From Nitrosomonas sp. (GTDB lineage Bacteria; Pseudomonadota; Gammaproteobacteria; Burkholderiales; Nitrosomonadaceae): DNA of 64,000 nucleotides. The DNA lies in NCBI RefSeq assembly GCF_019635155.1, contig NZ_JAHBZY010000006.1, positions 1 through 64,000 on the forward strand, read 5' to 3'. The notes below the pieces were generated by a model. It saw nothing but the letters and a program-made list of their open reading frames with translations. It did not search any database and was not told the origin of the DNA. Every line of letters starts with the position of its first letter. Position 1 is the stretch's first letter. Positions 7,836 through 26,334 of this stretch are shown piece after piece. Made by a program: the position numbers and the translations under genes.

Positions 7836-7874
7836 AGGGTTGTGAAGTTTCTTATTTAAGTTTTTTGAATAGCG

Positions 7875-9014
7875 TTATTTTTGTTTAGGCCGGACACCGA
7901 CTTTGACCGGGATGGATTTTTCCTGTTTGTTGCGTATGACCGTAATCGTTACGGTTTTTCCAGGTTCTAAGGCTGCAACCGTTTTGAGTATTTCCGATGT
8001 GCTATTTACCGGTTTTCCCTCGACAGCGGTTAAGATATCGCCCGGTTTGATTCCAGCCTGATCCGCGGGCCCTTCTTTGAGGGTGTTGGCGATTAACGAT
8101 CCCACCGGTTGTGCTAAGCCGAAGGATTCAGCCAGTTCCTGGGTCATGTCTTGCATGGTCACACCTAACCAGCCGCGCGTGACGCTACCGGACTGTATGA
8201 TTTGTTCCATGATTTGCTGGGCGTTATGGACCGGAATCGCGAAACCGATTCCCAGGGAACCACCACTGCTGGAATAAATGGCGGTGTTGATGCCGATCAA
8301 GTGCCCTGATGTATCCGTTAACGCACCTCCGGAATTACCCGGATTGATGGCGGCGTCGGTTTGGATAAAGTCTTCGAAAGTATTGATGCCGACCCGGCTT
8401 CTGCTTAAAGCGCTGACGATCCCCATGGTGACGCTCTGACCGACACCGAATGGATTGCCGACGGCCAGCACCACATCGCCGACTTTAACGTACTGCGATT
8501 GTCCGAATGTGATTGCCGGCAGATTTTTTAAATCGGTCTTGAGGACTGCCAGATCGGTTTCCGGATCCGAGCCGATTAATTTTGCTTTGGCTTTGCGGCC
8601 ATCGACCAGCGCGATTTCAACTTCGTCGGATGCTTCGATCACGTGGTGATTGGTCAGGATATAACCATTATTGCTGACGATGACGCCGGAGCCCAGACTG
8701 GAGGTGCGACGTGTCCGTGACTCGAATTGATCGCCAAAAAATCGGCGGAACGATGGATCGTTTAGCAAGGGGTGGAGCGGCTCTTTGATTTCCTTGCTGG
8801 TAAAAATATTGACGACCGACGGTATGGCCGCTTCCGCAGCATTAAAGTAGCTATCCGGTCTTGGTGTTTCTACAACAGGCACCGCTTCCTTTATGGTTAC
8901 GATTTCTCCGCGGGGTCTCCACGACAGTAAATCAGGCCGCAACGTCGATACGGTAAAAAAAATAGCCAGAAAAATTGTTGCTGTTTGTGCAAAAATCAAC
9001 CAAAGTCTGTACAT
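7875..9014 (-). CDS. degS: DegS/AlgW-like periplasmic serine protease with one PDZ domain
   Basis: The 379-residue protein has an N-terminal membrane anchor (about 5-24), a trypsin-like S1C domain with catalytic His 124 (TNHHVIE), Asp 154 (ETDLAVLK) and Ser 228 (GNSGGAL), and a single C-terminal PDZ domain (about 275-375). One PDZ plus an uncleaved anchor is the DegS/AlgW layout; in relatives this protease cuts an anti-sigma factor in response to misfolded outer-membrane proteins. No rpoE or rseA is in the window. It is divergent from nif3 with a 61-nt shared upstream region and is followed by the BT1 transporter. Confidence 0.85.
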   Translation of the reverse strand: MYRLWLIFAQTATIFLAIFFTVSTLRPDLLSWRPRGEIVTIKEAVPVVETPRPDSYFNAAEAAIPSVVNIFTSKEIKEPLHPLLNDPSFRRFFGDQFESRTRRTSSLGSGVIVSNNGYILTNHHVIEASDEVEIALVDGRKAKAKLIGSDPETDLAVLKTDLKNLPAITFGQSQYVKVGDVVLAVGNPFGVGQSVTMGIVSALSRSRVGINTFEDFIQTDAAINPGNSGGALTDTSGHLIGINTAIYSSSGGSLGIGFAIPVHNAQQIMEQIIQSGSVTRGWLGVTMQDMTQELAESFGLAQPVGSLIANTLKEGPADQAGIKPGDILTAVEGKPVNSTSEILKTVAALEPGKTVTITVIRNKQEKSIPVKVGVRPKQK

Positions 9015-9075
9015 CAGTGTGGTTACTCCAAAATCAATTTACTGCAAAGTAGTTTATGCACCAAGGAGAGCGTTA

Positions 9076-9822
9076 ATGCATCGAGATGAACTGGAAAATC
9101 ATTTGAATCAATTGTTGGATATTTCCCGCTTTCATGATTATTGCCCAAATGGCTTGCAAGTGGAAGGGCGCGGTAACATTCAAACCATTATCAGCGGTGT
9201 CACGGCTTCGTTGGATTTGCTGCAAGCTGCGATTGCAGCTAAAGCGGATGCGATTCTCGTGCATCACGGCTATTTCTGGCGTGGCGAAGACATGCGCATC
9301 ACCGGCATGAAAAGCCGCCGCATTGCGTTACTGCTGAATCAGCAACTCAATTTGTTCGCCTATCATTTGCCGCTGGATGCGCATCCGCATTTGGGCAATA
9401 ACGTGCTATTGGGGAAAAAATTGGGTTTGATCGAGACCGGCCGTTTCGGTGAACAGGATGTTGGAATTATCGGGGAATTGCCGCAACCCGTTACCTTATA
9501 TTCATTCAGTCATAAAATTTCTCGAACTTTGTTGCGTAAGCCCATGATTATCGGCGACCCGGAGAAAACGATCCGGCAAATCGCTTGGTGCACCGGTGCT
9601 GCGCAAAGCTATTTTGAGTCAGCTATCCGGCAGAGAGTCGATGCTTATTTGACCGGTGAAATTTCCGAGCAGCACGTGCATATCGCTCGCGAATCGGGTG
9701 TTGCATTCATTGCGGCGGGACATCACGCAACCGAGCGCTACGGCGTACAAGCGGTTGGCGATCATATCGCGCAAAAATTCGGTATTCGCCATCAGTTTAT
9801 TGATATCGAGAACCCGGTGTAG
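9076..9822 (+). CDS. Nif3-like dinuclear metal-centre protein (YbgI family)
   Basis: The 248-residue protein matches the Nif3/YbgI family, a hexameric ring protein with a two-metal site built from conserved His, Asp and Glu (HHGYFWRGE near 73, YHLPLDAHPHLGNN near 96 and GHHATER near 215). It is sometimes annotated as type 2 GTP cyclohydrolase I, but its true role is unsettled. The frame is open upstream to 8893, but the ATG at 9076 is chosen because AAGGAGAG lies just before it and the conserved fold begins there. The neighbour pairing with a DegS-like protease is common in betaproteobacteria. Confidence 0.88.
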   Translation: MHRDELENHLNQLLDISRFHDYCPNGLQVEGRGNIQTIISGVTASLDLLQAAIAAKADAILVHHGYFWRGEDMRITGMKSRRIALLLNQQLNLFAYHLPLDAHPHLGNNVLLGKKLGLIETGRFGEQDVGIIGELPQPVTLYSFSHKISRTLLRKPMIIGDPEKTIRQIAWCTGAAQSYFESAIRQRVDAYLTGEISEQHVHIARESGVAFIAAGHHATERYGVQAVGDHIAQKFGIRHQFIDIENPV

Positions 9823-9883
9823 TTTAATGAATGGCGAAGAATATTTGCTTTATGTTTTATGCCGGCGGTTTTAGCGTTGTGAA

Positions 9884-9997
9884 TTATGTGTTTTGATCAT
9901 CATCCTTTTTCTTTTTTTTGCCGGAAAACATGGTCCACCAGATAATGAAAAGAAAAAGACCCAATGCAACTGCCGCTTCGACTATGAGTAACCACAT
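9884..9997 (-). CDS. Small single-TM protein, 37 residues, unrecognised
   Basis: A 37-codon frame on the minus strand between nif3 and mltA encodes one hydrophobic helix (MWLLIVEAAVALGLFLFIIWW) followed by a strongly basic-then-acidic tail (KKKKKDDD). This is a plausible small inner-membrane protein. Its start lies 52 nt from the divergent mltA start. No strong ribosome-binding site is visible, so expression is uncertain. It was read directly from the sequence as a short frame; the helix-plus-charged-tail composition is the main reason for keeping it. Confidence 0.4.
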   Translation of the reverse strand: MWLLIVEAAVALGLFLFIIWWTMFSGKKKKKDDDQNT

Positions 9998-10049
9998 TTT
10001 TAGAGTTTGTTATCAAAATTCACGAGATTTCTACTTTAACCAAAATCCG

Positions 10050-11252
10050 ATGAAAAACCAATTAAGTTTTGCTATTTTGCTATGCTCGCTGTTGGCCGGA
10101 TGCGCGACTGAATCCGTGAGTCCTGTGGTAGCGCCCGGTAAGCCTGCGGAAACGGCGATGCCAGCACTGCCTCTGGACAAACCGTTTACCAAGTCCATTC
10201 AAAAGAAAGTGGCCTGGTCCGCGTTGACCGGCTGGCGGGATGATGATCTGTTGCCAGCTTGGCGAGCATTTCAGAAAAGTTGTCTGGCTTTGAATAAGCA
10301 ACCGGCATGGAAGGAATCGTGCCGGCAGGCATCGCTGCTTAAGCAACCTGATAATGCGGCGGTAAGAAAATTTTTTGAAGCTAATTTTACGCCTTATCAA
10401 ATTATCAATACCGATACTACTGAAGAAGGATTGGTGACCGGTTATTACGAGCCGTTGCTTAAAGGTAGCCGCAAACCTTCCAGTCGTTACCGTTTTCCGA
10501 TCTATGCCGCTCCCGATGATCTATTGACGATTGATTTGGGTGCAGCTTATCCGGAGTTAAAAGATTTGCGTTTGCGCGGCCGATTGGACGGACGCAAAGT
10601 GGTTCCTTTCCATTCCCGCGCCGACATCATGAATAACCCGAAGCTGCTGGATGGTTACGAGCTCTTATGGGTGGAGGATGAAGTTGAGTTATTTTTTCTG
10701 CACGTGCAAGGTTCCGGTCGAATCGTTTTTGATAATGGGGAGATCATGAAAGTAGGGTTTGCGGACCAAAACGGCTACCCCTACAATTCGATTGGTAAGC
10801 TTCTGGTAGAGCAGGGTGAATTGCCGCTCGAAAAAGCCTCCATGCAAGGGATTAAACAGTGGGGGCAGCAAAACCCGAAGAAATTGCCGGAGCTGTTGCA
10901 ACAAAACGCGCGTTACGTATTTTTCCGTGAATTGCCGTCCGATTTATCAGGGCCGGTCGGTGCATTGGGTGTGCCATTGACCGCGGGTCGCAGTATCGCA
11001 ATTGATCCGCAGTCCATTCCGCAGGGAGCGCCGGTGTTTTTGTCGACGACTTGGCCAAATACCAATAAGCCATTGAACCGCCTCATGGTTGCTCAGGATG
11101 TGGGTGGCGCGATCAAGGGTGGAGTACGCGCCGATTTTTTCTGGGGCTTTGGGCATGAAGCCGGAAATCAGGCAGGTAAAATGAAGCAATCGGGAAAAAT
11201 GTGGGTGCTGTTGCCGCGTGATTATCAATTTCCGCTGGTGACCCGGCAATAA
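10050..11252 (+). CDS. mltA: Membrane-bound lytic murein transglycosylase A
   Basis: The 400-residue protein starts with a lipoprotein signal peptide ending in LLAGC (Cys near residue 15), followed by the MltA barrel and the 3D domain (DVGGAIKG...RADFFWGFG). The catalytic-type Asp is near residue 350. It should be an outer-membrane lipoprotein that cleaves the glycan strands of peptidoglycan to 1,6-anhydromuropeptides. The frame is open to 9918, but only the ATG at 10050 gives a proper lipobox signal. No good ribosome-binding site precedes it. It ends at a bidirectional hairpin shared with dsbC. Confidence 0.93.
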   Translation: MKNQLSFAILLCSLLAGCATESVSPVVAPGKPAETAMPALPLDKPFTKSIQKKVAWSALTGWRDDDLLPAWRAFQKSCLALNKQPAWKESCRQASLLKQPDNAAVRKFFEANFTPYQIINTDTTEEGLVTGYYEPLLKGSRKPSSRYRFPIYAAPDDLLTIDLGAAYPELKDLRLRGRLDGRKVVPFHSRADIMNNPKLLDGYELLWVEDEVELFFLHVQGSGRIVFDNGEIMKVGFADQNGYPYNSIGKLLVEQGELPLEKASMQGIKQWGQQNPKKLPELLQQNARYVFFRELPSDLSGPVGALGVPLTAGRSIAIDPQSIPQGAPVFLSTTWPNTNKPLNRLMVAQDVGGAIKGGVRADFFWGFGHEAGNQAGKMKQSGKMWVLLPRDYQFPLVTRQ

Positions 11253-18733: not shown

Positions 18734-18810
<77 letters not shown>

Positions 18811-18817
18811 GAAATCA

Positions 18818-18848
18818 AGAGGTTAGATTAATTTCTAGCCTCTTTTTT
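18818..18848. terminator. Rho-independent terminator after the tRNA, overlapping the integrase stop
   Basis: AGAGGTTAGA at 18818-18827 pairs with TCTAGCCTCT at 18834-18843 (one wobble) around 6 nt and runs into a T-tract ending at 18848. It stops rpoD-tRNA transcription. The integrase stop codon lies inside the right arm, and because this DNA is beyond the attachment core it came in with the element. Confidence 0.8.
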
Positions 18849-19860
18849 CTTTTTGATGTGACAAAATTGTGTTATCTAGGATATTAGAAACCAGCTCGGC
18901 ATGCTGCATGAGTTGCGGTTTCGATAGGTGTGCATACCGTCTCACCATTTCTTCCGATTCCCAACCACCGAGTTCCTGCAGTACATTCATGGGCGTGCCC
19001 TGTTGAGCTAACCAGCTTGCCCAAGTATGGCGCAGATCATGCCATCTAAAGTTTTCTATCCCTGCTCGTTTTAATGCTAATTTCCATGCACGGGTATTTA
19101 CCCATGCAATCGGGTTGCCGCGAAATGTAAAAACCCTGTTTTGATGCTTACCGACTTGCCGAAGTAACACCGTTATCGCAACTGAATTAAGTGGAACATG
19201 AATTGCTTTTCTTGCTTTGGCTTGATCGGGATGAATCCATGCAGCCTTACGTTCAAGATCAACCTGATTCCATTCCAGATTAATAACGTTTGATTGTCTC
19301 AAGCCAGTTGATAAAGCAAATATCATCATGTCCTGCTGATGTTGTGGCAATTCATTAAGTAATCTTTTTACTTGCTCAGGAGTTAACCACCGAATACGGC
19401 GCTTAGGTTCTGGGAAAAGCCTGATTTTTGGAATTTTTTCCATCCATTCCCAATCATGGCATGCTTTCCGCAGAATTGCCCTTATCAGCGCTAAATAGCG
19501 ATTTGCCGTTGATGGGCTTGTATCCTTTGCTTTTGCATGTGCAATGTGATCAATTAATTCGCGATCAATTTCGTGCAATTGCCTATTACGTAAGAATTGC
19601 TGTAACCATCGAAGTTTTTCTTTATCGCGCTCATGAGTAGCTTTGTGCTGTGTTTCTATTAGAAACTTACATGCTGCTTCATCCCATGTGTGCTCCGGTT
19701 TTTCCCCCAATCGCTGAATGCGCCAGGATTCAGCTTTTAACTTGTCGTGGTACTCTTGCGCTTGGGTTTTGTCGGCTGTGCCAGCAGAGCATCTAACACG
19801 CTCTCCTGCAGGTGTGGTGAACGCGATCCACCACGTATTACCGCGCTTGTAGAGTGGCAT
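18835..19860 (-). CDS. Tyrosine site-specific integrase
   Basis: The 341-residue protein has an N-terminal arm-binding and SAM-like domain (about 1-150) and a catalytic domain with the expected residues: Arg 188 (ALSTGLRQSNVINL), Lys near 215, His 274 and Arg 277 (HDLRHTW), Trp 300 and the nucleophile Tyr 309 (RRYAHLS). It should recombine the island between the tRNA site and a circular form. It lies directly inside the left attachment repeat. The start at MPLYKRGNTWW is typical of the family, so the 124-nt out-of-frame overlap with the upstream excisionase-like gene appears real. Confidence 0.93.
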   Translation of the reverse strand: MPLYKRGNTWWIAFTTPAGERVRCSAGTADKTQAQEYHDKLKAESWRIQRLGEKPEHTWDEAACKFLIETQHKATHERDKEKLRWLQQFLRNRQLHEIDRELIDHIAHAKAKDTSPSTANRYLALIRAILRKACHDWEWMEKIPKIRLFPEPKRRIRWLTPEQVKRLLNELPQHQQDMMIFALSTGLRQSNVINLEWNQVDLERKAAWIHPDQAKARKAIHVPLNSVAITVLLRQVGKHQNRVFTFRGNPIAWVNTRAWKLALKRAGIENFRWHDLRHTWASWLAQQGTPMNVLQELGGWESEEMVRRYAHLSKPQLMQHAELVSNILDNTILSHQKEKRG

Positions 19861-20069: not shown

Positions 20070-20340
20070 AACGCATGGGTTTGTTGGGATTGTTAAAATC
20101 AAAATTTCTCTTGATATAACCTTCTTTAGAAACTTGCCATAAAGGAAAGGTAAGCATCGAAATTAATGTTTGACGGCAGCGAGTTGAAACTTCAGTCGGC
20201 TGAAAACACAACACTGTCCATGCTTCATAAAACAAACTTGGATTAATCTGATGCGGGAGAACACCAACCCGATTGGCATCAGCAAATAGATTTGCAAGTT
20301 CACCCATTGCCCAATCAAGATCATCCGCTTCAAATTTCAT
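20047..20340 (-). CDS. Unrecognised 97-residue island protein
   Basis: I do not recognise this protein. It is 97 residues from the ATG at 20340 (MKFEADDLDWAMGELANLFADANRVG), with an acidic helical first half and a basic, asparagine-rich end. The frame extends upstream to 20400, but the start at 20340 is preferred because it gives a short 11-nt overlap with the end of the replication gene. Its stop region overlaps the excisionase-like gene by 23 nt. This overlapping chain (rep, this gene, xis-like, int) argues that it is translated. It may be an accessory replication or copy-control protein. Confidence 0.55.
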   Translation of the reverse strand: MKFEADDLDWAMGELANLFADANRVGVLPHQINPSLFYEAWTVLCFQPTEVSTRCRQTLISMLTFPLWQVSKEGYIKRNFDFNNPNKPMRYENTFTH

Positions 20341-21382
20341 CGGATTTTCCCTTTGTGCGTAAGTAATGATCTGTAGCGGCAAGACGCCGGGGAATGGCAT
20401 GCCGTTTTAGCTGTTCTACGATGAGTTCCGCACTGCCTTCGCGTTGCAGCATGACATTGAGCAGTGCACCATAAGCAGTTGAGGCAACCTGCTTCAAACG
20501 TTCATAGCTGATCCGATCTTGTTCTTTAATCGTATTGATGCGAGAGACTCGATCAGATACCCAGGATAGGCAAGGATAGGCACCCGCAACATACTCACCT
20601 GGATGCAGCAAAACTTCCCAAGGAATAACGCGATCTTTTGCATGAAGTTCAACTTCCCAGCGTACCCAAGGACTGGATGGATCGCCTAACTGCTTACCTT
20701 TTTCATAAATCCTGATGAGCTTGCCATTTTTACGATTACCGACATATACACTACGGCCAGAGCCATCAGGTTTAATCCAGTTTCCACGCTGTGTAAGTTT
20801 CGGTTCTCTGCCGCCGTGTTTAAAGTGGCCTTGCATATAAAATTCAATGGCCATATCGACAGAATGAACGCCGTTGAAATCATCCACCGCGCCATCCCAG
20901 CGAGTAATGCGCGCTCGAAGTTGATCTCTCAGGTATATAGCAAAAGATTGCCAATCAGAAATTAATGCGCAACCTTCGCCGGGTAGGGACAGGAAAGCAG
21001 TGTTATTTTGGCCGCCGTATGCGAATAAAACGCAGCCATGATCGAATTGAAAGGAATATTGCCAACCGTGAAGCCCCCGCTGCTGGTCGGTCATTCCGCC
21101 CAAAATGCCCTTAGTCGCCTCACTAAAGGATTTAAAAAATTCTAATGGATTATTATTTTCTGGATGAAAAGGGAAGGAAACATTCAGCCAGTCAGTTAAG
21201 GCCGCCTGTGATTTATTTTTTTCTCCGGTGGGACTTTCCCCCCGTATTACCGTACGGGGGGTATCATAGCCGCAGTCCGCTGCGCTGTCCTGCGCTGCGC
21301 GCTCGGACAGTCGCGCGTCAGCGAAAGAATCGCTGTTAGCATCATTACAATTGCAAAAAGTTTTATACGTGGGGTGTTTCAT
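20330..21382 (-). CDS. Replication initiation protein (Rep_trans/RstA-like, rolling-circle type)
   Basis: The protein is 350 residues from the ATG at 21382. The core (TDWLNVSFPF, ARITRWDGAVDDFNG, SVYVGNRKNGKLIRIYEKGKQLGDPSSPWVRWEVELHAKD) matches replication initiation factors of plasmids and filamentous phages such as RstA of CTX-phi, which nick one strand to start rolling-circle replication. The catalytic Tyr cannot be assigned with confidence. The frame is open to a TTG at 21418, but that TTG is the -35 of a strong promoter, so the start at 21382, about where transcription should begin, is preferred. The N-terminal 60 residues are low-complexity and contain a DNA hairpin (21238-21261). Confidence 0.82.
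   Translation of the reverse strand: MKHPTYKTFCNCNDANSDSFADARLSERAAQDSAADCGYDTPRTVIRGESPTGEKNKSQAALTDWLNVSFPFHPENNNPLEFFKSFSEATKGILGGMTDQQRGLHGWQYSFQFDHGCVLFAYGGQNNTAFLSLPGEGCALISDWQSFAIYLRDQLRARITRWDGAVDDFNGVHSVDMAIEFYMQGHFKHGGREPKLTQRGNWIKPDGSGRSVYVGNRKNGKLIRIYEKGKQLGDPSSPWVRWEVELHAKDRVIPWEVLLHPGEYVAGAYPCLSWVSDRVSRINTIKEQDRISYERLKQVASTAYGALLNVMLQREGSAELIVEQLKRHAIPRRLAATDHYLRTKGKSDEI
21238..21261. repeat. Perfect 9-bp GC-rich hairpin inside the rep 5' region
   Basis: CCCCCCGTA at 21238-21246 pairs perfectly with TACGGGGGG at 21253-21261 around the loop TTACCG. It lies within the poorly conserved N-terminal part of the rep coding region. It could be a nick-site or single-strand-origin hairpin, or a translational control element. 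Confidence 0.6.
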
Positions 21383-21428
21383 GCTCTGCACTATACACAA
21401 GCACATGCAGAGCGTCAATCACCCCACG
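21368..21428. repeat. 61-bp interrupted palindrome over the rep promoter
   Basis: Two nested inverted repeats share one centre at 21398: outer arms CGTGGGGTG (21368-21376) and CACCCCACG (21420-21428), 9 of 9 matched; inner arms GCTCTGCA (21383-21390) and TGCAGAGC (21406-21413), 8 of 8 matched. The inner arms cover the promoter. The structure could be an operator for a dimeric regulator, the double-strand replication origin, or both. Confidence 0.8.
21390..21418 (-). promoter_or_regulatory. Sigma-70 promoter for rep, probably leaderless
   Basis: Reading the minus strand, TTGACG (21418-21413) and TATAGT (21395-21390) are separated by exactly 17 nt. Only 7 nt lie between the -10 and the ATG at 21382, so the first transcribed base should be at or next to the start codon. 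The inner palindrome arms overlap both boxes, so a repressor bound there would block RNA polymerase. Confidence 0.75.
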
Positions 21429-21440
21429 ATAAATTACTTC

Positions 21441-21758
21441 TTAATCTACTTGTGGAGTGCGAATATTAGCAATTTCACCCTTAACAGCTTTCCAATAGCT
21501 GCTTACCTTTTGAACAGCTCTCCAGGCAAGTGACTTGTGCGCGAGCACCCCAATATCAGGCATATGCACTCTGAAATCCAGATCCAAAAGCTGTTCATAT
21601 TTTTTAATACTTTTTCTGTCATGCATCAAAAGAATGATTTTCCAGCCTAATTGGCGGCCAATGTAAAAGCATCCAATAGCATGTTCAAGATTCATCACAT
21701 CGCCGCGATATAATTCAATACGAGTTTTAATATGTTCTACAATTTCGTTTTCAGTCAT
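21441..21758 (-). CDS. Unrecognised 105-residue island protein
   Basis: I do not recognise this protein. From the ATG at 21758 (MTENEIVEHIKTRIELYRGDVMNLEHAIGC...) it is a 105-residue, mostly helical and basic protein with no membrane segment. The frame is open to 21779 but MTENEI is a more natural start. It lies just upstream of rep on the same strand, separated by the palindromic promoter, so it is the best local candidate for a rep regulator, although no HTH is obvious. No clear ribosome-binding site is seen. Confidence 0.5.
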   Translation of the reverse strand: MTENEIVEHIKTRIELYRGDVMNLEHAIGCFYIGRQLGWKIILLMHDRKSIKKYEQLLDLDFRVHMPDIGVLAHKSLAWRAVQKVSSYWKAVKGEIANIRTPQVD

Positions 21759-21906
21759 GATGGTATTTAAAAAAAACAATATAGAGTGGGGTGAATTGTA
21801 CTCTCCTTTTTGGCACTAAAGATTCACTGCATTCTATTAGAAGCACAAAACCGTACTCAGTAAAGGATGTGTAGGTTAAAAACGATAGTAGAGTGGGTTC
21901 GGCCAG

Positions 21907-21953
21907 CATGCCCAGTTTCATGGGCATGGCCTTGCGCCGGGTCGACCGGCGCA
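21907..21953. repeat. Two adjacent perfect hairpins
   Basis: CATGCCC (21907-21913) pairs with GGGCATG (21922-21928), and TGCGCCGG (21933-21940) pairs with CCGGCGCA (21946-21953). They are only 4 nt apart and much more GC-rich than their surroundings. Tandem hairpins like these can serve as single-strand origins or packaging signals in rolling-circle elements, which is a possibility only. Confidence 0.6.
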
Positions 21954-22007
21954 CCCGAGAAGCGGTTTCTTTTCAATTAAGCTAGATTATTTACTGCAGT
22001 TTTAGTA

Positions 22008-22039
22008 GGTCGTATGTTCGACTCCTATCAGCAACACCA
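22008..22039 (+). repeat. Diverged tRNA 3'-end-like sequence (possible internal att remnant)
   Basis: Thirty-two bases ending in ACACCA match the T-arm, acceptor and CCA end of the 18734-18810 tRNA at 24 of 32 positions without gaps. The T loop TTCGACT and four of five T-stem pairs are kept. The rest of a tRNA is absent. It lies at the junction between the rep module and the defence module. Confidence 0.45.
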
Positions 22040-22158: not shown

Positions 22159-23118
22159 TTAAGAATGAATCTTTTCGTAAATGTACTGATCGTAGGTATT
22201 TTCCAAGAAAATGCGAAGTGAGGTTGGACATCTGACACGTGGAGCTAGTATAGGCATCGCATTTCCAGTACCAATAGTAATTCGTACCTTTGGTGGTGTA
22301 GAGAATTTCGCAAAAAATAGCGGCAAGGAACGATGAATTTCTTGAGCAAATTCAACCATGAACCACAAAAGATACTTTCCACGAATGAATCTTCCAGCGT
22401 TACCTTTTTGACGAAATTCTTTTTCTACTTTAGATAACTCAATCTGATCAGAAGCGGGCAAATTTACGCATTTAGCAGCATGTTGTAATCGCGATAAACC
22501 TGTCGCAAATTTATCTTTTAGGCTTATTTTTCCATCAGAAAAAATGAAGAAGTCTTTAGGAAGAATACTATCTAAACATGGCCGCATACCATTGCGTTTC
22601 CAAAGAATAACTTGAACCATTATTAAAAGCATTGCTTCTTGAAAAAATACCAATGCAGAAAGAAATCGCTGCTTAATGGCATCCTCCTCTTGGGAATTAA
22701 GGTTATTAATATTAAGTATTTCTTCAAGAAGTCGTTTCAGAACATCATAATTAGCTACATTGTTTTCAATGGAATAATTGTCGGTAATGTACAGATTCAC
22801 AGGAGCCATGGACGATTCTTGAAGGAAATCTGAAAGATCTCGGTCAACAAAAAAACAAATTCTCTTGCGTGAAAATCTTTCCCAATTGAAGATAGCTAAT
22901 ACTTTTAGTACATTGTCTTTTCGACCAGCTGGGATTAACTCAACTTCCCATCCTTCAGGCAACTTATGCTCAATCAGTCCTCGGTAAAACATCGGATCTT
23001 CTTTTCCTTCGATTATTCCGTAAACAACATTAGCATTAGGTTTGTAACGTAGAAGAAATTCATGATAAGCAGCAATCTCGCTATCAAGTGCTTCTGCATG
23101 AATTTGAAGCATTGACAT
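22159..23118 (-). CDS. ariB: DUF4435 TOPRIM-like protein, PARIS effector AriB
   Basis: The 319-residue protein has the DUF4435 pattern: IIEGKEDPMFY (catalytic-type Glu 37) and FFVDRDLSDF (Asp 92 and 94) on TOPRIM-like strands, followed by a helical C-terminal half. In the PARIS anti-phage system, AriB is held by the AriA ATPase and released when a phage anti-restriction protein is sensed; it then acts as a nuclease on host tRNA and stops growth. Here it directly follows an AriA-like ATPase gene with a 10-nt gap on the same strand, the expected order. Intact in length and motifs. Confidence 0.78.
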   Translation of the reverse strand: MSMLQIHAEALDSEIAAYHEFLLRYKPNANVVYGIIEGKEDPMFYRGLIEHKLPEGWEVELIPAGRKDNVLKVLAIFNWERFSRKRICFFVDRDLSDFLQESSMAPVNLYITDNYSIENNVANYDVLKRLLEEILNINNLNSQEEDAIKQRFLSALVFFQEAMLLIMVQVILWKRNGMRPCLDSILPKDFFIFSDGKISLKDKFATGLSRLQHAAKCVNLPASDQIELSKVEKEFRQKGNAGRFIRGKYLLWFMVEFAQEIHRSLPLFFAKFSTPPKVRITIGTGNAMPILAPRVRCPTSLRIFLENTYDQYIYEKIHS

Positions 23119-23128
23119 TTCTAGTTCC

Positions 23129-24502
23129 TTAAATGCTTACAAATTCACCAAGAGAATAAGCATAGTTCCGCAATTCGTTCTCGTAAATAAAAGGGGAATG
23201 CGTGACAGCAACAAGACCCTTGCAAAACTGCCCAGAACGAATGTCGGTAAGAAAACGACGCTGCCAAGGAACTGACAGCGACAACTCTGGTTCGTCAATT
23301 AGGACAAAGAAATTTTGTTGCCCTGATAAATAGAGATGGCTGAAGAGCGAAACAATTTGTTTTTCACCTGAAGAAAGATCGCTCAGTGTAATCGACCGCT
23401 CAACCTGCAATTCGTCTGTAGGGATAATAGAAAAGCTAAATGTTGAGCTGTTGTAGACGAAACGCTTATCTACAATATACTCTGAACACAATTCGCAGAA
23501 TGCAGAAATCTGCTTTTCATTTTCTTGAAGTGATTGTTGGAATCCCAGCAATTTAAGAAAGTAGTGGTAGATGATCTTCTCATGTTCCTCAGTAGGAGCA
23601 TCAGCAGAACGAGCTGAGCTAATGAAACTAAAGAGATGATCCTTATGAGTTTTTGTAAGAATACTTTCGTGGATTCTGTCAAGTACAGCTCTAACAGTGT
23701 CTTCAGAAACATTAGCTATCTCTTTCATTCCAACATTCTGATACTCTCGATCAATCACATCACCCAAGTACCTAAGTGTCAAATTATTCAAGTTTTCACG
23801 AGCGAACTCTTTTAATCGTTCTAATGTGCGATCAACTGCATCTTGAACGTCTTTCATGCCGAATTCAACAAGTTCAATGTAAGCCTCTCCTGCTTCTGAT
23901 TGGCGAAATCGGTTTCTATGGCGCCGAAAGTCATCTGGGTCTACACCTTCAAAAATACTGTTCAATTCACGTTCAATACGCCGGTAGGTTGGCAGATATA
24001 AAACTTGGGCTCCAATTGCTTCATGAATACGATTAATAGTTTCTTGAAGTTCCTTTTTGGAGCCTTTGGGAAACTCTTCGAAAAACTCCATTTGTCTAAC
24101 TAAAATCGCTGGTGGTATGGCAAGGCGCTCGCCAGCACGTTCAAGCTCAATACTAACCCTTTCGAAATCTCCCTTTTCAAGAAGCTCCATGACTCTACGT
24201 CGAATCGATGGGGGTAACTCAGCGAGGTATCGGCGATCAACTCCTTTGAAAGCTTTGACAATTTCTTCGTGAGAAACTTTGTGTTCTCTACCGTTTATTG
24301 TCGCTATAATAGAATCAAAACGAAATTGAATTAATGAAAGCCAGCGTCCAGAGAGGAAGTGAAACAGGATACGAAGAAAAGTTGTTTTACCTGAACCATT
24401 CTCACCGACAAGTATCAGTGTATTTTCTTTAATAGTAATATCGACGTTTTTACGCCCATGGAGTCCAATAATCCGGAATCGTTCGAGTGTACTATTTATC
24501 AT
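23129..24502 (-). CDS. ariA: AAA ATPase (ABC/SMC-like), PARIS sensor AriA
   Basis: The 457-residue protein has Walker A GENGSGKTT (33-41), the ABC-type signature LSSGEKQ near 376-382, Walker B VLIDEPELS (400-408, catalytic Glu 404) and an H-loop His 435 (VAVTHSPF). The middle is a long helical insert. This compact SMC/Rad50-like ATPase next to a DUF4435 gene is the PARIS layout, where AriA forms a hexameric scaffold that senses phage anti-restriction proteins and releases AriB. Other AAA/TOPRIM pairs (OLD-like) are the main alternative. It opens the two-gene operon; its upstream 307 nt is AT-rich. Confidence 0.78.
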   Translation of the reverse strand: MINSTLERFRIIGLHGRKNVDITIKENTLILVGENGSGKTTFLRILFHFLSGRWLSLIQFRFDSIIATINGREHKVSHEEIVKAFKGVDRRYLAELPPSIRRRVMELLEKGDFERVSIELERAGERLAIPPAILVRQMEFFEEFPKGSKKELQETINRIHEAIGAQVLYLPTYRRIERELNSIFEGVDPDDFRRHRNRFRQSEAGEAYIELVEFGMKDVQDAVDRTLERLKEFARENLNNLTLRYLGDVIDREYQNVGMKEIANVSEDTVRAVLDRIHESILTKTHKDHLFSFISSARSADAPTEEHEKIIYHYFLKLLGFQQSLQENEKQISAFCELCSEYIVDKRFVYNSSTFSFSIIPTDELQVERSITLSDLSSGEKQIVSLFSHLYLSGQQNFFVLIDEPELSLSVPWQRRFLTDIRSGQFCKGLVAVTHSPFIYENELRNYAYSLGEFVSI

Positions 24503-24809: not shown

Positions 24810-25061
24810 ATGAGCCGCTTGTCTATCGACCTGACACCAGAGCAGCATCAGAAGATTAAGGCTGTTGCTGCTTTACAAGGAAAATCAATTAAAGAATATG
24901 TGCTTGCTCAAATTCTACCTACATCTTCTGATGAAGACATGGCTTTGAATGAACTGGAAACGCTTCTGGATGAACGTATTAAATCAGCTAGAGCTGGGAA
25001 AATCAGCAAGAAATCTGTAGAAGAAATCTTTCAAGAAGCATATAGCGAAAGTACCAAGTAA
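24810..25061 (+). CDS. Ribbon-helix-helix antitoxin (ParD/RelB-like)
   Basis: The 83-residue protein starts with a ribbon-helix-helix type DNA-binding segment (SRLSIDLTPEQHQKIKAVAALQGKSIKEYVLAQ) and ends with a charged helical tail (residues 45-83) that would wrap the toxin. Such antitoxins repress their own promoter and neutralise a ParE/RelE toxin. The stop codon TAA shares its last base with the ATG of the next gene, indicating translational coupling. AAAGGGTGA precedes the start. Confidence 0.82.
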   Translation: MSRLSIDLTPEQHQKIKAVAALQGKSIKEYVLAQILPTSSDEDMALNELETLLDERIKSARAGKISKKSVEEIFQEAYSESTK

Positions 25062-25375
25062 TGCCTGGTTACGAACTTACTGTTCTTGCTGAAGAAGATT
25101 TGAGAGCAATCGCGCGTTATACGGTTAATACGTGGGGAATTGAGCAAGCAAAACATTACGAAACCTTGCTGCTAAAGCGATTCCAAGAGATCGCTCAAGG
25201 AAATATTACGCCAAGAGTATTTCTAAAAAACAGATCAGATTTATTGTTTACGCATTGTGAACATCATTATATTTTCTATTGGCAGCCAAAAAACAAAGAG
25301 GTGCCAATTATTTTGGCAATTTTGCATGAGCGGATGGATCTCATGCAAAGACTTAAGAATCGACTGGCGACATGA
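25061..25375 (+). CDS. ParE/RelE-superfamily toxin
   Basis: The 104-residue protein fits the RelE/ParE fold: LTVLAEEDLRAIARYTVNTWGIEQAKHYETLLLKRF in the first helices and HHYIFYWQ...VPIILAILHERMDL in the C-terminal strands. ParE members block gyrase and RelE members cut mRNA; the LHERMDL ending favours ParE, but this is not certain. It overlaps its antitoxin by one base. Located at the right end of the island, it may stabilise the element against loss. Confidence 0.82.
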   Translation: MPGYELTVLAEEDLRAIARYTVNTWGIEQAKHYETLLLKRFQEIAQGNITPRVFLKNRSDLLFTHCEHHYIFYWQPKNKEVPIILAILHERMDLMQRLKNRLAT

Positions 25376-25548: not shown

Positions 25549-25589
25549 CTCATAATCCCTTGGTCGTTGGTTCGAGTCCAACCAGACCC
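25549..25589 (+). repeat. Right attachment repeat (41 bp, tRNA 3'-half copy)
   Basis: Identical to 18766-18806. The bases before it do not form a tRNA 5' half, and GCTA replaces ACCA after it, so this is an attachment remnant and not a working tRNA gene. Confidence 0.92.
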
Positions 25590-25594
25590 GCTAG

Positions 25595-25630
25595 AAAAAG
25601 CACTTTTGTTTTTAACAAAGTGCTTTTTTA
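25595..25630 (+). terminator. Rho-independent terminator after the right attachment site
   Basis: AAAAAGCACTTT (25595-25606) pairs perfectly with AAAGTGCTTTTT (25617-25628) around 10 nt. Lying outside the element, it is probably the original terminator of the tRNA gene, displaced by the insertion. Confidence 0.82.
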
Positions 25631-25716
25631 TTTTGTAGATAAATGTTGTTAACGCAGGCAAGAGTGATTTCTAAAAGACTCTTGAATCTGAAACCTAAAT
25701 ACAGTAAGTTTTTCGG

Positions 25717-26334
25717 ATGAAGCGAGCTAAAACCAGTAAAGCTTGGATGAAAGAGCATGTTAACGATTTTTTTGTGAAACAAGCAAGAAAGGAGGGCTAT
25801 CGTTCACGTGCGGCTTACAAATTATTGGAGATTACCGAACGAGATCATATTTTGAAATCTGGGATGATTGTAGTTGACTTGGGTGCTACGCCGGGTAGCT
25901 GGTCGCAGGTTGTCAGCCAAAAAGTCGGTCGTCAAGGCAAAGTGATAGCGCTAGATGTTTTAGAAATGATGCCATTGCCAGGTGTGGAGTTTATTCAAGG
26001 CGATTTTACGGAAGAAGTTGCGCTAATTGAATTAAGGAAACGACTTGACGGATATCACCCAGATCTGATTATTTCGGATATGGCGCCCAATATGAGCGGT
26101 ATTGCCATTAGCGATCAAGCGAGAAGTATGTATCTGGCAGAGTTGGCATTAACCTTTGCATTGGAACAACTGAACTATAGCGGAAACTTTTTAGTCAAAG
26201 TTTTCCAGGGAAGGGATTTTGATCAATTTCTTCGTGATATGCGAATCGGATTCAAAAATGTCATGATACGGAAACCGAAAGCCTCTCGCGATCGAAGCAA
26301 TGAGCTATATTTGTTGGGTCTCGGGAAAAAATAA
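25717..26334 (+). CDS. rlmE: 23S rRNA (uridine-2552 2'-O)-methyltransferase
   Basis: The 205-residue SAM-dependent methyltransferase of the RrmJ/FtsJ family has [11 protein letters not shown] with a catalytic-type Lys, [12 protein letters not shown] (SAM site), DMAPNMSG with the catalytic Asp, and LVKVFQG with the second Lys. It methylates U2552 of 23S rRNA late in 50S assembly. It precedes ftsH by 170 nt, the standard pairing in proteobacteria, and is the first chromosomal gene right of the island. Confidence 0.95.

Follow-up and report, generated by a model that had tools for sequence, protein, structure and literature searches.

OLD and GajA each carry an ABC ATPase and a Toprim domain in one protein, and PtuA, found in Septu and in retron systems, is an ABC ATPase whose partner is an HNH nuclease. 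The PARIS system of E. coli (AriA–AriB; PDB 8ux9 and 8v46) is encoded by adjacent genes, an ABC ATPase gene followed by a DUF4435/Toprim gene. Rousset et al. 2022 (PMC9122126) give a rule for the two-gene form, by which the ATPase scores at least 32 to AAA_15 or at least 27 to AAA_21 and its partner at least 27 to DUF4435. PARIS on satellites has already been published (PMC9122126), as have defence slots on very small satellites: the account of PICMIs, whose core genes are integrase, AlpA and primase, names PARIS among the cargo (PMC10803314).

An adjacent ATPase and DUF4435 gene pair

Within the 64,000-nucleotide stretch of Nitrosomonas sp. DNA analysed here (the window), an ariA-like gene for a 457-aa ABC-type ATPase, the presumed sensor (23129-24502, minus strand; ORF, PADLOC, Pfam and fold searches), is followed by an ariB-like gene for a 319-aa DUF4435/Toprim protein with E37, D92 and D94 (22159-23118, minus strand; PADLOC, Pfam and structure model). 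Both reading frames are open, and the spacing of 10 nt and the three acidic residues are as described in a sequence-only reading that had proposed a PARIS-like pair. Against Pfam, the ATPase scored 56.6 bits to AAA_21 (cut-off 27) and 50.7 bits to AAA_15 (cut-off 32.1) and its partner 65.4 bits to DUF4435 (cut-off 27), and the top PADLOC matches were AriA (2.1e-27) and AriB (2.4e-19), respectively; the two sets of results are not independent, because three of the PADLOC models resemble Pfam copies, judging from model lengths. With these scores and the short gap, the pair falls within the two-gene rule as given in PMC9122126. A promoter consensus scan returned nothing promoter-like upstream of ariA.

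The pairing of the ATPase with a DUF4435 protein is not a matter of chance. Among the best 80 of 118 viral loci from an AriA-profile search, 64 have an ORF matching the AriB profile, which lies on the same strand and -120 to +300 nt from the ATPase in 61; of the 16 loci with no such ORF, L117 has a PADLOC AriB. In the 86-row AriA tree described below, each of the 43 proteins in the window's clade has a DUF4435/AriB partner. The current Pfam DUF4435 model matches the AriB proteins of the window and of the viral locus L045, and the PADLOC AriB model matches these together with L117, L125 and L126, the E. coli-type proxies, whose AriB proteins gave no match to the current DUF4435 model at E 0.01.

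The motifs anticipated in the ATPase were all found: Walker A GENGSGKTT (33-41), an ABC-like signature LSSGEKQ (376-382), Walker B VLIDEPE and the H-loop THSPF. In an alignment of 32 proteins, K39 is kept in 31 (one gap), and LSSGEKQ, D403, E404 and H435 are kept throughout. AriA is the top match of the window ATPase in PADLOC, PDB-sequence and fold searches, and its predicted structure resembles solved AriA more closely than it does the ABC ATPases of other defence systems. The partner is modelled as a Toprim protein, and among solved structures AriB itself matches the model best, with a Foldseek TM of only 0.54-0.56 and 11-17% identity in structure alignments; a phmmer search of the PDB gave no match, solved AriB included, and profile comparison with solved AriB reached only E 0.058.

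The profile alignment with E. coli AriB, in which we counted E. coli residue numbers along the printed chain, places E37 on E26, D92 on D88 and D94 on E90, and sets the SIEN motif of the window protein (E118) on E. coli SLEN. Across 39 aligned AriB proteins, E37, G38, D41, D92 and N119 are invariant; at position 94 one protein has E and the other 38 have D, and at position 118 one has D and the other 38 have E. As reported in PMC12409363, cleavage by E. coli AriB is abolished by E26A, K60 and K64 are modelled gripping the anticodon loop, and defence is lost when both lysines are changed (K60A/K64A). K67 of the window protein corresponds to K64, at a position that is K or R in 39/39 proteins, and in our reading of the profile alignment no lysine stands opposite K60.

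The pair shares with E. coli PARIS its gene order, similar protein sizes, predicted folds and catalytic residues, and differs in the low identity of AriB and in the clade of AriA. With PARIS and DUF4435 profiles matching, a Toprim model that matches AriB, best matches to AriA and AriB and not to OLD-family proteins, and the Toprim Glu and Asp retained, the membership in PARIS proposed from the letters is well supported. Other identities were considered and rejected: OLD or Gabija, as ATPase and Toprim are separate genes and the flanks hold Rep_trans, o112 and ParD with no GajB helicase; and Septu or retron PtuAB, as the partner is DUF4435 with no HNH protein (PtuB). OLD, Gabija and Septu all scored lower than AriA in profile and fold searches, although OLD, GajA and PtuA share the ABC ATPase fold with the window pair and OLD also shares the Toprim fold.

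Relatives and phylogenetic position

The closest relative found, locus L002 of the MAG YF3.bin57, has an AriA 81% and an AriB 62% identical to those of the window, followed by the viral contig IMGVR_UViG_3300031413_000366 (L045; 55% and 39%), which, from its ORF translations, looks like a tailed-phage contig. No tRNA gene was found at either locus. Further relatives lie on plasmids of Gloeocapsa, Leptospira, Paraburkholderia, Leptotrichia and Pantoea. On the Paraburkholderia plasmid (L006, 4956-7787), one AriA-like ATPase gene is followed by two DUF4435 genes. A three-gene run at L038 (1036-4602), comprising an FtsK/SpoIIIE-like ATPase, an AAA_15/AAA_21 ATPase and a DUF4435 protein below the cut-off, is possibly a further variant of the architecture.

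Near home the pair is rare. A protein search found AriB in 3 of 125 family genomes, the window's own counted, and DUF4435 in 4 of the 125 (above the cut-off in 3); in a phylum sample of 398 genomes, AriB occurred only in the window's own, and the AriA profile at 1e-40 detected 4 of 399 genomes of an order sample, again counting its own. A tblastn search of phages with AriB gave no match, nor did a DNA search of E. coli genomes for an E. coli-type reference with L117 as query.

To place the ATPase, we used an 86-row AriA tree built from one ORF per locus (330 aa or longer, E ≤1e-15; lesser loci dropped) with L125 and L126 added, in which L117, L125 and L126 stand as proxies for E. coli-type PARIS in place of a full E. 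coli sequence; L125 was picked for its 60% identity to a fragment of E. coli AriA. The window falls in a 43-row clade (SH-aLRT 100), and the three proxies fall in a separate one. A careful tree of 41 chosen rows of the 86 recovered 26 rows of the window's clade together (99/98), with the proxies excluded. Forcing the window's four-row group together with the proxies was rejected (AU p 9.9e-6), in a test with long branches and a group named after the first tree. With the proxies as reference, the window AriA lies outside the E. coli-type clade. The description of the pair as a diverged member fits this DUF4435-paired clade; in the phylogeny that had been suggested, run here with the three proxies standing in for the named PARIS clades, the pair is separate from the E. 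coli type.

The tRNA-Met island and its family

By its sequence features, the surrounding island is a real 6.8-kb integrative element in tRNA-Met with the PARIS pair as cargo, in line with the earlier proposal of an island lodged in a tRNA gene. The tRNA-Met (18734-18810) is overlapped in its 3' half by attL (18766-18814, plus strand), one copy of a 49-nt direct repeat whose second copy, attR (25549-25597, plus strand), marks the distal end; the copies are 96% identical, with two mismatches. Between them lie a tyrosine integrase (18835-19860, minus strand; Phage_integrase 115.7 bits, PHROG integrase 1.7e-67), a 117-aa ORF, a Rep_trans/RstA-like replication initiation protein (20330-21418, minus strand; PF02486 103.4 bits, phrog_453 1.5e-73) that resembles inovirus and plasmid Rep proteins, the small backbone ORF o112 of no assigned function (21441-21779, minus strand), the PARIS pair, a ParD-like antitoxin (24810-25061, plus strand; PF09386 123.8 bits) and a ParE-like toxin (25061-25375, plus strand; PF05016 43.4 bits). 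Neither small ORF has a Pfam match over the cut-off (o112: DUF1699, 15.9 bits, cut-off 33.4). G+C content is 38.7% in the pair, 44.4% in the backbone and 46.1% in the window.

Like P4-like satellites and PICMIs (PMC9122126, PMC10803314), the island belongs with small integrative elements that have a swappable defence slot, PARIS included, whereas its backbone has a Rep_trans (RstA/inovirus-type) initiator and its site is tRNA-Met. A PICMI identity was rejected: no primase or AlpA was found among the island proteins scanned, leaving the integrase as the sole member of the core set out in PMC10803314, with Rep_trans instead. At the distal flank of the island (25549-26334, a region that starts with attR), attR is followed by rlmE-ftsH. 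We queried 60 other genomes of the genus with RlmE and viewed 29 loci over about 1.5 kb per side, some ending at contig ends; rlmE is followed by ftsH in 29/29, and neither tRNA-Met nor rpoD appears upstream of rlmE in any of the 29 within that distance, so that an uninterrupted junction was not found and the flank may be rearranged. Inside the island, between Rep and AriB, a stretch at 22004-22039 resembles both the tRNA-Thr 3' end of L039 and a segment of L029 (86% over 36 nt in either case); it may be the remnant of an att site from an ancestor once in tRNA-Thr, where L036 and L039 are located now.

The recurrence of this backbone elsewhere with other cargo goes beyond what the sequence-only reading had described. 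Rep was found in 13 of 125 family genomes, the window's own counted, and we compared the window element with 11 loci (L027-L036 and L039) from 10 of the 12 other Rep genomes, G091 supplying two; G037, G118 and two weaker copies in G122 were left out. Integrase, Rep and o112 (beside Rep, 31-43% identity) are present in 12/12 elements. The remaining backbone counts are lower bounds, several loci ending at contig ends or at the 14-kb limit: a second att copy in at least 7 of the 12, an intact tRNA-Met (ARAGORN) beside the integrase in at least 6 and ParDE in at least 5. ParE-to-att spacing is 174 nt in the window and 174-199 nt in L027-L030. The L031 integrase is split over two frames. L027 has two tandem integrase genes (7849-10558), 87% and 90% identical to that of the window, and perhaps holds one element stacked on another at a single tRNA-Met.

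The scan of cargo proteins covered 9 of the 11 loci (L036 by Pfam only), leaving out L033, whose slot ends at a contig end, and L039. The slot holds GmrSD with both domains in L028 and CBASS in L029 (cyclase 6e-122 and two Cap15-type proteins), so that, with the window, firm defence systems occupy 3 of 10 scanned slots. A HEPN protein in L030 and a subtilase in L035 are just suggestive of defence. No recognised defence system was found in the scanned slots of L027 (one weak PADLOC match, 6.8e-4), L031 (DUF6731), L032 (a peptidase M19 ORF bordering the contig end), L034 and L036. Slot genes without a Pfam family in L027 (4189-5465), L034 (8965-9708) and L036 (640-1581) are candidates for new defence genes.

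A nearly invariant 100-nt double hairpin lies upstream of o112 and Rep (feature coordinates 21900-21958, no strand given) and is kept in 11 of the 12 elements, being absent from L039. Both sides have changed in only 1 of 24 pairs, and the conservation is therefore one of sequence and no proof of structure. The hairpin would fit a candidate rolling-circle replication origin or packaging-type signal. A 26-nt hairpin pattern, allowing up to three mismatches, occurs once in the host's contigs and was not seen at the resident inovirus, whose contig is incomplete. That putative filamentous phage, represented by inovirus-type genes for a Zot-family protein and a minor head protein at a contig end (G000:C5, about 95000-97400; L165), is a possible helper. 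Our search of open-licence papers found no description of an element with this backbone. We tentatively entertain the idea that the island represents a family of filamentous-phage-type satellites, so far undescribed, in ammonia-oxidiser-like bacteria, defined by integrase, RstA-like Rep, hairpin and one interchangeable defence slot, here filled by a PARIS of non-E. coli type, and maybe packaged by the resident inovirus.

Proposed mechanism, alternatives and significance

If the pair works as in E. coli, its assembly, the freeing of AriB, the cut in tRNA and the resulting defence would proceed as follows. ATP-bound AriA would form a multimer, by the PARIS model a hexamer, that keeps the Toprim protein AriB inactive; binding of AriA by a phage protein, probably an anti-restriction protein or other DNA mimic, would free AriB, which would then dimerise and, through a predicted two-metal site of E37, D92 and D94, nick tRNA in the anticodon arm and so halt translation before phage release, with abortive infection as the outcome. 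The earlier suggestion of a trigger or tRNA target differing from that of E. coli is plausible. The host tRNA-Lys(UUU) reads U36AAUC/C41 at the cleavage site (slash), versus U36AAUC/A41 in E. coli; C41 is found in E. coli tRNA-Asn, which is reported to be cut much less than tRNA-Lys (PMC12409363), and the E. coli rule predicts that the host tRNA-Lys(UUU) is a weak target at most. The host genome encodes HsdR N-terminal domains in two places, one of them borderline, and may thus have a first-line restriction for phages to block. It also has two ammonia-monooxygenase-family genes, so the host is probably an ammonia oxidiser of Nitrosomonas type. Altogether, we put at roughly 80% the probability that these two genes form a PARIS anti-phage system separate in clade from that of E. 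coli, that it is the cargo of a tRNA-Met element and that it acts by this mechanism. Weighing against this reading are the faint likeness to solved AriB, the separate clade, the missing lysine opposite K60, the lack of a promoter-like site upstream of ariA in the consensus scan and C41 of the host tRNA-Lys.

Three other explanations were weighed. The ATPase might be a generic OLD, Septu or Gabija-type protein beside an unrelated DUF4435 neighbour, and many PADLOC AAA profiles, such as PtuA, GajA and MAD3, do match it more weakly; yet AriA ranks first in the three kinds of search named above, the DUF4435 partner accompanies each member of the clade, and no HNH or UvrD-like partner turned up in a scan of 10 proteins from the island and its surroundings, which leaves this account highly improbable. 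It is unlikely that a sensor ATPase frees a Toprim effector, as in PARIS, and that this effector cuts DNA like OLD and not tRNA. Nor do we favour a role confined to the island, in which the pair would exclude rival elements or form a maintenance module with ParDE and would not serve general host defence. The pair does adjoin ParDE, the integrative element that carries both also encodes a replication initiator, relatives of the pair are located on plasmids and viral contigs, and a commentary classes PARIS with toxin-antitoxin systems (PMC11455837). However, either E. coli gene could be deleted without toxicity, whereby the authors of PMC9122126 exclude a toxin-antitoxin system, and GmrSD or CBASS occupies the slot in two sister elements, so that such a role appears improbable.

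The pair is an ordinary but distant relative of PARIS, a known system by which bacteria sacrifice themselves to stop viruses, and lies on a small mobile island whose kin carry other defence genes in the slot. Given the published satellites with PARIS and with defence slots, it is no new kind of system; what may be new is the filamentous-type backbone that recurs with a defence slot. As the window's clade, half of the AriA-like ATPases in the tree (43/86), contains none of the E. coli-type proxies, triggers and tRNA targets may vary more than is apparent from the E. coli system. The island family offers a natural swap experiment, in which one backbone, often at one site, carries PARIS, CBASS, GmrSD or other cargo.
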